Assembly: GCF_039503195.1 (NCBI RefSeq)
Contig: NZ_JBCJKP010000001.1
Span: 2,480,001-2,544,000 of the forward strand
DNA length: 64,000 nucleotides
Direction of reading: 5' to 3'
Origin: Streptomyces mirabilis
GTDB lineage: Bacteria; Actinomycetota; Actinomycetes; Streptomycetales; Streptomycetaceae
The translations under genes and the position numbers were made by a program. This document shows, piece by piece, positions 46,358 to 49,437 of this stretch. Positions within the stretch are counted from its first letter, which is position 1. Every line of letters begins with the position of its first letter. Below the pieces are notes generated by a model. That model made no database searches. It saw only the letters and a list, made by a program, of their open reading frames with translations, and was not told where the DNA came from.

Positions 46358-46672
46358 TCAGCGCCCCGCGGTCTCCACGCGTCGGCGTGCGACGGCGATC
46401 ACGTCGTACGGGGTGTCCGGCGTCGGCGTGGTCGTGAACCGGGCGTTGGGCAGGTACAGGCGGTCCCCGTACGCGGCCACGGTGGTCGGCACGTGGAGGT
46501 CGTCGATGGCGATGCCCTCCGGGCGGATGCCGTTCGGCAGATGGATGACGGCGGGTAACGAGGTCTGCGCTGCCCAGGCCGGGCCGGCCGAGGACCCGGC
46601 CAGCGCGGCACCGGCGGTGAGCAGTCTTCGGCGGCTGAGACGGCCTGGGAACGAACGGTGCGTGGATGTCAC
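46358..46672 (-). pseudogene. SMP-30/gluconolactonase-like secreted protein with a large internal deletion
   Basis: A 104-residue frame. Its start is a Tat-type signal (RRRLLTAGAALAGSSAGPAW) followed by SLPAVIHLPNGIRPEGIAID, the N-terminal end of streptomycete SMP-30-like beta-propellers. It then jumps, near 46495-46515, to DLHVPTTVAAYGDRLYLPNA and TPTPDTPYDVIAVARR, which are the C-terminal end of the same family. The middle, normally about 200 residues of propeller blades, is missing. The reading frame is intact across the junction, so this is an in-frame deletion. The GTG at 46672 keeps GGAAGGA 8 nt upstream. The product could not fold as a propeller. Family recall is from memory. Confidence 0.7.
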
Positions 46673-46957
46673 GGTGCGTCCTTCCGGGCGGGACCGGGAG
46701 TTGACCGGCCCAGCGATCAACTGTCCCTGCCACCCCACCACATGCCCCCTGACTCCGCAGCCTTTGGCCGGTTTGCTGCGTGACATCTGTTTCAGGACGG
46801 ATTGCACAGGTTTCCCCATTCAACTTGTTTTCAAACCGAGTTGGCGAAGCCGGGGTGGACGAGTCGCCGTCGGCGTGCCAGGTTGTGCCCCGAAGGCGCG
46901 GCCCGGGGACGGGACTTGGCAACACCCGCAGAACCGAACCGAGAGGAGCGGTACGCG

Positions 46958-48715
46958 ATGACCGACCAGGTACAGCCGACGCAGGGCCCGGGAACGGCCG
47001 GGCCGGGACCCGACGGAGCGGGGTTCACCTACCGGGGAGCCGAGCAGGAGCTGATCGTCGTCGCACGCCCCGAGGCCCGGCTGCGCGCCGGGGCCGAGGG
47101 CGTCCGTTCGGCGGCGGGCTCGGACGTGTCGGCCCTCAACATGTTCCTCAGTGACGAACAGCTCGCCCTGGAGCCGCTGTTCGGCAGCGAGGAACGACTG
47201 CGGCAGTCCGAGGTGGCGGACGGCGGGGGCGGAAGCGACCTCGCGCTCTTCTACCGGGTGCGCGGCGTCGAGAGCCGCGCCCAGGAGCTGCGCTCACGGA
47301 TCGCCGCGCTGCCGGAGATCGACACGGCGTACGTGAAGCCCGGCGCCGTCCCCGCCTCGGTGGGGTCGGTCGGGCGGAGCACGAACGGCTCGGCGAGCGC
47401 GGACGACGGCCGACGGACGAAGGAGGGGGCGCCCGTCACTCCGGACTTCACCAGCCGCCAGGGCTATCTGCGGCCGGCGCCCGAGGGCATCGACGCCCAC
47501 TGGGCCTGGCAGCGGCCGGGCGGTACGGGCCAGGGCGTGACGGTGATCGATGTGGAGGGGGCGTGGCAGCTGGGCCACGAGGACCTGGCCGCGAAGCTCG
47601 CGGGCGTGGTCGTCGGCACCCCGCTGACGGACCTCGCCTGGCGCAACCACGGCACCGCCGTCATCGGGGTGATCGGCGGCGACCGCGACGAGCGCGGGAT
47701 CACCGGCATCGCGCCGGACGCGGTGACCGCCGCCGCGTCCTTCCAGGGCATGGGCACGGCGGCCGCGATCCACGCGGCGGCCGACCGGCTGGGCCCCGGT
47801 GACATCATCCTGGTCGAACTGCACGCCCCAGGGCCGCGGTTCGACTTCGAGGAGCGCGACGACCAGCAGGGTTACATCGCGATCGAGTGGTGGCCGGACA
47901 ACTTCGCGGCCATCCGGTACGCGACCGCCAAGGGGGTGCTCGTCGTGGCGGCCGCGGGCAACGGCGCCGAGTCGCTCGACGACGCGGTGTACGAGCGGCG
48001 CCCCGCCGAGTTCCCCGCGTGGTGGCGCAACCCCTTCAACCCCGCCAACCCGTCCTCGGGCGCGGTACTGGTCGGCGCGGGCGCACCGCCGCCCGGCACG
48101 CACGGCCGCGACCACGGCCCGGACCGCTCCCGCCTCGCCTTCTCCAACTACGGGGCGCGGGTGGACGCGCAGGGCTGGGGACGCGAGGTCACGACCACCG
48201 GCGGCTTCTGGGACCGGCCCGGCGACCTGCAGGGCGGTGCCGAGGAGATCGGCTGGTACACGGACACGTTCTCCGGGACCTCCTCCGCCTCCCCGGTGGT
48301 GGTCGGCGCCCTGGCCGCGCTGCAGGGCATGCTCAAGGCGGCGGCCCAGGAACCGATGTCCCCGGAGCGTGCCCGCGCGGTGCTGCGGGCCACCGGCTCC
48401 CCGCAGCAGGACGCGCCGGGCCGGCCCGCCTCCCAGCGGATCGGCAACCGGCCGGACATCAAGGCGGCGGTCACCCGTCTGCTGCCGGAGGCGGTCGGCT
48501 CGGGCCAGGCCGAACGGTACTGGGACGAGCTGCTGCCGTACCCGCGCGAACTCCCGCCCAGACTCCGGCTGTTCGTGGCCGGTGACTGGCGCAACCTCGA
48601 CAACCCCTCCCCCGAGATCCGTCAGGCGGTGCACTCCGCCTTCGCGGGCGGACGGCCCGACGTACGTGTCTGGTTCTCGGACGACGAGATCGTCGGCCTG
48701 GTGGTCACGGGCTGA
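46958..48715 (+). CDS. Subtilisin-like S8 serine protease with a shared C-terminal domain
   Basis: A 585-residue protease with the Asp-His-Ser triad: D198 in GVTVIDVEGAW, H231 in NHGTAVIGVIGG, S442 in SGTSSASPVVVGALAALQG, plus the oxyanion Asn335 in AAAGNGAES. No signal peptide is visible, so it is probably cytoplasmic or released by another route. Residues 1-130 form an unusual prodomain-like region (ELIVVARPEARLRAGAEGVR). The last 65 residues (521-585, from YWDELLPYPRELPPRLRLF) have a clear counterpart in the next gene's product. The ATG at 46958 has GAGAGGAG about 9 nt upstream. It is 60 nt before the Q-rich gene, so the two probably form one operon. Confidence 0.88.
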   Translation: MTDQVQPTQGPGTAGPGPDGAGFTYRGAEQELIVVARPEARLRAGAEGVRSAAGSDVSALNMFLSDEQLALEPLFGSEERLRQSEVADGGGGSDLALFYRVRGVESRAQELRSRIAALPEIDTAYVKPGAVPASVGSVGRSTNGSASADDGRRTKEGAPVTPDFTSRQGYLRPAPEGIDAHWAWQRPGGTGQGVTVIDVEGAWQLGHEDLAAKLAGVVVGTPLTDLAWRNHGTAVIGVIGGDRDERGITGIAPDAVTAAASFQGMGTAAAIHAAADRLGPGDIILVELHAPGPRFDFEERDDQQGYIAIEWWPDNFAAIRYATAKGVLVVAAAGNGAESLDDAVYERRPAEFPAWWRNPFNPANPSSGAVLVGAGAPPPGTHGRDHGPDRSRLAFSNYGARVDAQGWGREVTTTGGFWDRPGDLQGGAEEIGWYTDTFSGTSSASPVVVGALAALQGMLKAAAQEPMSPERARAVLRATGSPQQDAPGRPASQRIGNRPDIKAAVTRLLPEAVGSGQAERYWDELLPYPRELPPRLRLFVAGDWRNLDNPSPEIRQAVHSAFAGGRPDVRVWFSDDEIVGLVVTG

Positions 48716-48775
48716 CGTGTCCGAGGGCGTAGCCGCAAGTCAACGATTCGATGATTCACGGAAGGTGGCACCCGT

Positions 48776-49363
48776 ATGAGCACCACCCCGCAGATGAGTC
48801 AGCAGCAAGGACACCAGCAGGGCATCCAGCAAGGCATCCAGCTGGGGCAGCAGGGACCGAGCACGGCGCCGCCCCAGCAGTTCGGACAGCAGCAGCCCAT
48901 GGCGTTCGGACAGCAGATGCAGCAGCCGTTCGGCCAGCTGCAGAACCCGCAACTCCAGAACCCGCAGCAGCAGAACCCGCTGCACCAGAACCCGCTGCAC
49001 CAGAACCCGCAACCGCAGATCCCGCAGCAGCAGATCCCGCAGCACCTCCAGCAGCAGCTTCAGCAGATGGGGCAGCAACAGCCGTTCCAGCAGCTGCTCC
49101 AGCAGCTCGGCGGGCAGCAGCAACAGCAGCAGGCGCAGGTCCTGACGAGCGGGATCGCCCAGCACTTCTGGGACGTGGTCACCCCGCTCCCGGGCCAGCC
49201 GTCGATCCTCTACCTGTTCATCGACAACGCCTGGCGCCCCCTGGTGAACCCCAACCAGGTCACCCACGACGAGGTCCAGCAGGCCTTCGCCTACGGGCAG
49301 CAGGTCATCGGCCTCTACGACGCCAACAGCAGCGCCGTACAGGCCGTCATCGTGAACAAGTGA
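48776..49363 (+). CDS. Glutamine-rich low-complexity protein sharing a domain with the adjacent protease
   Basis: A 195-residue protein. Residues 5-121 are extremely Gln-rich with Pro/Asn (for example QNPLHQNPLHQNPQPQIPQQ and GQQQQQQAQ), a prion-like composition. Residues 131-195 form a compact domain (FWDVVTPLPGQPSILYLFID, then NAWRPLVNPNQVTHDEVQQA) that aligns with residues 521-585 of the preceding protease: W-D at the start, LF-(I/V), W-R-x-L-x-NP, (E/D)xxQA, V-x-x-x-(Y/F). There is no signal peptide. The ATG at 48776 has GGAAGGTGG upstream. It may be a substrate, inhibitor or scaffold of the protease; this is inference. Confidence 0.85.
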   Translation: MSTTPQMSQQQGHQQGIQQGIQLGQQGPSTAPPQQFGQQQPMAFGQQMQQPFGQLQNPQLQNPQQQNPLHQNPLHQNPQPQIPQQQIPQHLQQQLQQMGQQQPFQQLLQQLGGQQQQQQAQVLTSGIAQHFWDVVTPLPGQPSILYLFIDNAWRPLVNPNQVTHDEVQQAFAYGQQVIGLYDANSSAVQAVIVNK

Positions 49364-49391
49364 CGCTCTGAGAGAGATCTGAGAGAGAAGA

Positions 49392-49420
49392 GGCGCCGGG
49401 CGGTACGACCGCCCGGCGCC
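49392..49420. terminator. Bidirectional terminator between the Q-rich gene and mshC
   Basis: A 13-bp perfect stem, GGCGCCGGGCGGT / ACCGCCCGGCGCC, with loop ACG, between convergent genes and 28 nt past the Q-rich stop. Confidence 0.85.
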
Positions 49421-49437
49421 CCACACGTACGGGAGAA

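Follow-up and report, generated by a model that had tools for sequence, protein, structure and literature searches.

In the subtilase cytotoxin SubAB, the gene of a subtilisin-like protease is followed by that of a binding subunit with an OB fold. Phage endolysins carry a C-terminal binding domain, and extra free cell-wall-binding subunits are produced from internal starts. In bacterial amyloid signalling motif pairs, an NLR protein and a Bell effector are encoded by adjacent genes and have a common, prion-like sequence, which is thought to couple them. In this study, we analyzed a window of 64,000 nucleotides (nt) from Streptomyces mirabilis (assembly GCF_039503195.1, contig NZ_JBCJKP010000001.1, positions 2,480,001 to 2,544,000 of the forward strand), in which the gene of an S8 (subtilisin-like) protease, here called P, is followed by the gene of a glutamine-rich (Gln-rich) protein, here called Q, and the two proteins share a C-terminal domain. 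Judged from their sequences and order, the P and Q genes form one unit, and we speculated that Q may serve the protease as a scaffold.

The effector-associated domains (EADs) of nucleoside triphosphate (NTP)-dependent bacterial conflict systems are small domains that a peptidase has in common with further products of its operon, with homotypic contact proposed (Kaur et al. 2020, doi 10.7554/eLife.52696), so that an earlier sequence-only reading of this stretch, which knew of no described system of this form, had put it too strongly. The same source describes EAD systems as common in multicellular actinobacteria, mentions S8 peptidases alongside trypsin and NucA domains, and gives Death-like and comparable EADs as alpha-helical (doi 10.7554/eLife.52696).

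A protease and a glutamine-rich protein with a common barrel domain

The P gene (46958..48715, 585 amino acids (aa)) and the Q gene (48776..49363, 195 aa) are both on the plus strand and 60 nt apart, as the sequence-only reading had placed them, and the shared C-terminal domain that it had claimed was confirmed. Residues 515-585 of P (48500..48712) and residues 121-195 of Q (49136..49360) gave a BLOSUM62 local score of 95, compared with a mean of 22, a standard deviation of 4, and a maximum of 47 in 5,000 shuffles, and the comparison of the P-domain and Q-domain profiles gave a probability of 98.3 and an E value of 2e-14. The protease loci used in this study are the best 80 of 107 relatives of P from a scan of genome contigs with P, and all of them are from Streptomyces. 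The segments find each other in profile searches, which had been proposed as a check: the Q-domain profile matched 80 of the 80 proteases (median E 8.6e-8 at a nominal 200,000 sequences), and the P-domain profile matched 77 of the 78 Q proteins (median E 3e-4, weakest 2.2). The P and Q domains are approximately 30% identical, and G, A, D, P, L, R, P and an AFA..G segment are among the positions conserved at more than 80% in both sets. The predicted fold is a small, OB-like barrel (pLDDT 93 for the Q model), whose top structural matches include AB5 B subunits, no better than unrelated OB proteins. No match to the barrel domain was found in Pfam or NCBIfam.

The Q gene is directly downstream of the P gene in 78 of the 80 loci, the exceptions being L097 and L098; the lack of Q downstream of P was read directly for these two and for genome G018. 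We also scanned 392 Streptomyces genomes; only 14 of the first-look candidates were scored in each genome, which may have left both single matches and absences under-called. The barrel domain was found in 64 genomes, twice in 58, three times in one (G944, in which the third copy sits in a second protease), and once in five. In all 59 genomes with several matches, the P and Q matches were on one contig and strand, with starts 532-857 nt apart, so the adjacent pair is present in 59 of the 64 domain-bearing genomes, and the co-occurrence that had been suggested as a further check was found. A Q-type match without a protease match was not found in the 392 genomes. It seems from this distribution that Q depends on P; protease matches without a Q match do occur. 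The source genome has just two barrel copies, and in a sample of the phylum (396 genomes, 236 genera) the domain was found in three genomes, all of them Streptomyces. No plasmid copy of Q was found.

The protease belongs to the S8 family, with 56.1 bits to PF00082 (Peptidase_S8, E 4.8e-15, residues 226-480) against a curated cut-off of 21.8, and it is the sole member of its own subfamily in the source genome at E <= 1e-10. The catalytic residues Asp198 (DVEGAW, 47549..47551), His231 (NHGTA, 47648..47650), and Ser442 (GTSSASP, 48281..48283), together with the oxyanion residue Asn335, are invariant across the 80 loci; the catalytic role of Asp198 in P is presumed from what is known of the S8 family. 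Residues 30-128 (47045..47341) align with pro-subtilisin propeptides in structure comparison, within a whole-protease model that has a mean pLDDT of 46 and is poor outside these residues, and without a Pfam propeptide match. In a simple hydropathy scan, neither P nor Q had a hydrophobic stretch at the N-terminus, and no signal peptide or export signal is evident. P resembles a pro-subtilisin that lacks an evident signal peptide. It is below the NCBIfam cut-off for the mycosin of the type VII secretion system (TIGR03921, 41.2 bits against 278.75), and a sequence search for a solved structure gave a best E of 1. In a second-lineage protease at another locus (L132:5743-7629), the barrel is kept and the position of the catalytic Asp is Ala.

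The first part of Q (residues 1-120, 48776..49135) is Gln-rich and of low complexity, which agrees with the sequence-only reading. The median content of Gln and Asn in the 78 orthologues was 44% (range 34-51%), with a median of three charged residues, so that this part is nearly uncharged; Gln alone makes up 44% in the nearest orthologue. Its length ranges from 82 to 183 aa, with start codons set by our own rule, of which at least one (L045) is misplaced. CAG accounts for 4,127 of the 4,414 Gln codons in these parts. The N-terminal start MSTTPQ is present in 64 of the 78 orthologues, and the best-conserved piece of the Gln-rich part is the motif Q[PL][FYN]..[LM]L.Q (for example QPFQQLLQQ), which is present in 73 of the 78. 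A conserved segment upstream of the Q gene (48761..48775, plus strand) holds the likely ribosome-binding site GAAGGT, which recurs before the Q start in most of the orthologues listed. The terminator scan found none between P and Q.

Divergence and probable exchange of the Q barrel

Across 77 loci, the mean amino acid distances of PAC2 (upstream of P), the P core, the P barrel, the Q barrel, and mshC (downstream of Q) were 0.058, 0.175, 0.121, 0.455, and 0.089, respectively. In a codon model run on the first 34 taxa from a list that had been thinned at 5% distance, the omega values of the Q barrel, P barrel, P core, and mshC were 0.158, 0.089, 0.110, and 0.072, respectively, which indicates that both barrels are under purifying selection. 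The pairwise NG86 median ratios of nonsynonymous to synonymous substitution rates (dN/dS) of the Q barrel, P barrel, and P core were 0.87, 0.15, and 0.24, respectively. Positive selection on the Q barrel is not claimed, as the NG86 value of 0.87 was not upheld by the codon-bias-aware model (0.158).

Identity along the locus was profiled in five pairs of loci picked for contrast. In the most extreme pair, L088 and L090, identity runs at 93-99% as far as the Q start, drops to 80-88% across the Gln-rich part and to 71-68% across the barrel, and recovers to 97-100% in mshC, which makes the Q barrel an island of divergence between related species; the other four pairs had the same dip at Q, lesser or similar, the weakest being L077 and L079. 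At third codon positions, L088 and L090 differ by 9% in the P core and by 32% in the Q barrel, and this rise at third positions in swapped pairs fits an exchange of old alleles. The divergent alleles of the Q barrel thus look both constrained and exchanged. Tests of tree incongruence rejected the trees of the other genes for the Q barrel, but we gave them no weight, because the P core and mshC were also mutually rejected and 2,000 resamplings were used instead of the 10,000 that the program asks for. The sharp divergence of the Q barrel beside a conserved P barrel points to an outside pressure on Q that might be traced.

Possible roles of Q

With a probability of roughly 0.35, we believe that Q is a self-associating scaffold that clusters or positions the protease. 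The Gln-rich composition suggests self-association of Q, and the prion-like part would let Q molecules assemble, while the barrel family would give P and Q a common contact, either mutual or through a common partner. Q would then cluster or place the zymogen of P, probably inside the cell, and the high local concentration may promote removal of the P propeptide. As the P barrel is conserved and the Q barrel is divergent, a direct contact would have to use a conserved face. We counted in favor of the scaffold the homology of the barrels, the adjacency of the genes, the absence of Q-type matches without a protease match in the 392 genomes, the lack of a terminator found between the genes, the Gln-rich part in 78 of 78 orthologues, the propeptide-like domain, the purifying selection on both barrels, and the layout of a pair in Haloferax.

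In that pair, on plasmid pHME505 of Haloferax mediterranei (L105), the protease is 55.6% identical to P over residues 29-509, and an 84-aa gene that lies 62 nt downstream repeats its final 80-odd residues, with 64 of 82 residues identical, 70% identity at the DNA level, and a dN/dS of 0.18. The pair is like P and Q in that the C-terminal domain of a protease from this subfamily recurs in the product of the adjacent downstream gene, and unlike them in that the small protein lacks a Gln-rich part and the recurring domain is of an unrelated kind; that it might be homologous to the Streptomyces barrel was considered and rejected (hhalign probability 0.1). The two layouts hint that such enzymes have been coupled to a partner in this way more than once, and the archaeal case offers a second, independent test of the principle. 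More speculatively, and by analogy with caspase-recruiting adaptor filaments, the pair could be a proximity-activated module, in which a prion-like, Gln-rich adaptor with a diversifying, horizontally exchanged barrel would sense a variable partner or be challenged by it, assemble, and recruit a pro-subtilisin that bears a conserved barrel, the same design having arisen separately in haloarchaea with another module; we consider this version rather unlikely.

Several results weigh against the scaffold. L088 and L090 differ by 1.8% of amino acids in the P core and by 53% in the Q barrel. The identity of P and Q barrels from the same genome was 0.3039, compared with 0.3033 after permutation, and 32% of permutations reached the observed value; barrels of one genome being no more alike than random pairs is evidence against allele-matched recognition. 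The sequence-only reading had suggested mutual recognition. The shared domain, the conserved pair, and a dependence of Q on P are supported, but these two comparisons do not support an allele-specific form of mutual recognition. Outside Streptomyces, 29 loci were examined (10 including Haloferax, 6, and 13, with L126 represented by its last 140 aa only), and 14 of them were found to have 35 aa or more of C-terminal extension, of which 13 had no shared neighbor, Haloferax being the only exception. The recognizable modules in the C-terminal slot of the subfamily tend to be binding modules and include ricin lectin, fn3, CBM_5_12, and DUF346 above the cut-off, and PKD and FG-GAP below it, and lectin and carbohydrate-binding types elsewhere in the subfamily favor an outside ligand over mutual contact. 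They thus favor a close rival of the scaffold, to which we give a somewhat lower, still tentative probability: the two barrels would have one type of outside ligand in common (a glycan, a peptide, or a surface), so that P and Q arrive at one place without touching, and Q would be a protein with the binding domain only.

A further result against the scaffold comes from the five genomes with a single domain match: in three of them (G011, G755, and G902), the four catalytic residues of the protease are all present. The protease of G018 has lost the catalytic Asp, and that of G814 is cut by the contig end. Decay of proteases without Q was considered and rejected, because one of the four assessable proteases was decayed and three were intact, giving no pattern. 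Since three of the five keep all four catalytic residues, an obligatory form of the inhibitor that the sequence-only reading had offered among the roles of Q is disfavored. A partner that duplicates a domain of the enzyme could compete with it for its binding site, and Q might in this way inhibit P or guard it like an antitoxin, but P already has a propeptide-like domain, and we regard such a role as very improbable.

The absence of Q without P in the 392 genomes, together with the occurrence of P without Q, is also what would be expected if Q were a dedicated substrate, in which case P would recognize the related barrel and cut within the Gln-rich part, so as to release or dissolve an assembly of Q. 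Long, exposed segments of low complexity are easy targets for proteases. However, no conserved cleavage site was found, none having been searched for, and the most conserved piece of the Gln-rich part is a short motif (73 of 78); we think this role unlikely. It is less likely still that the Q barrel is an old duplicate of the P barrel with an unrelated role and an inherited adjacency. The low identity of the barrels (approximately 30%), their lack of co-variation, and the inheritance of the locus at one site between PAC2 and mshC would fit such a relic, but the pair has been kept together in 59 of 64 genomes, and the separate lineage of Haloferax keeps a similar pair with an unrelated domain.

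Surroundings of the pair and comparison with known systems

The position of the locus is common to the loci, with PAC2 upstream and mshC downstream wherever these genes fall on the stretch examined; L019 ends before mshC. PAC2, mshC, a GntR-type regulator, and mtnA were identified as direct neighbors by family search. A third operon member was considered, as mshC is approximately 3 kb farther away in part of the loci, and was rejected: in L067, the one insert tested, the gap between Q and mshC holds a GH31 glycosidase with NPCBM domains on the opposite strand (L067:8553-11642), so the insert is not part of the P-Q unit. Similar inserts are present in roughly fifteen of the 80 loci. A terminator-like hairpin lies between Q and the convergent mshC (49390..49422), and it is weak evidence of a terminator because one was found where 0.9 was expected by chance. 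Upstream of P, an open reading frame on the minus strand (46358-46819 of the window) resembles, on visual inspection, an exported protein that has been truncated; it had no family match.

Relatives of the protease were found in a Nocardia/Rhodococcus-like genus (8 of 251 genomes), the label being a guess, and there was no C-terminal extension in the seven loci read. Two scans gave no confirmed match to viral relatives. One protein of a Paenibacillus phage (L115:3776-5866) belongs to the wider subfamily; it carries the annotation GlcNAc-binding protein A and is an S8 protease with fn3 and ricin-lectin domains. On a Paenibacillus plasmid (L108:4582-6080), the propeptide-like and catalytic parts of a relative are in two overlapping frames, beside a trypsin-like gene and another S8 gene. 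On a Rhizobium plasmid (L152:3857-4453), a short frame matches the N-terminal region of P only, with a gene for a DNA/RNA non-specific endonuclease on one side and SIR2 and ATPase genes on the other.

Compared with EADs as the cited source presents them, P and Q are alike in that a domain is common to a peptidase and its operon partner, and unlike in that the domain models as a beta barrel and the partner Q has a Gln-rich segment. They also differ in being a two-gene unit without an NTPase or MoxR-vWA gene, the rest of the window not having been searched for such genes. No match to Q was found in Pfam, NCBIfam, PADLOC, or PHROGs, and its membership of an EAD family had no support from the first three, whose coverage of EADs is unchecked; none of the PADLOC anti-phage defence families matched P or Q at E <= 0.01. 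If the barrel couples P and Q, it would play, as a beta barrel, the part that homotypic adaptor domains play in apoptosis-like systems, and Q, as a natural Gln-rich bacterial protein, makes self-association directly testable.

Like SubAB and other AB5 toxins, the locus has a protease gene followed by the gene of a partner with a predicted OB-like barrel, and the top matches of the barrel include AB5 B subunits; in contrast to them, P itself bears the barrel and has no evident export signal, half of Q is Gln-rich, and no host target is implied. The locus resembles phage endolysins in having an enzyme with a C-terminal, putatively binding domain and a free copy of that domain, but here the free copy, Q, has diverged, is encoded by a gene of its own, and carries a long extra segment. 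With the amyloid signalling motif pairs, it has in common the adjacent genes with a common sequence and the prion-like character, whereas the part common to P and Q is a folded barrel and the prion-like composition is on Q only.
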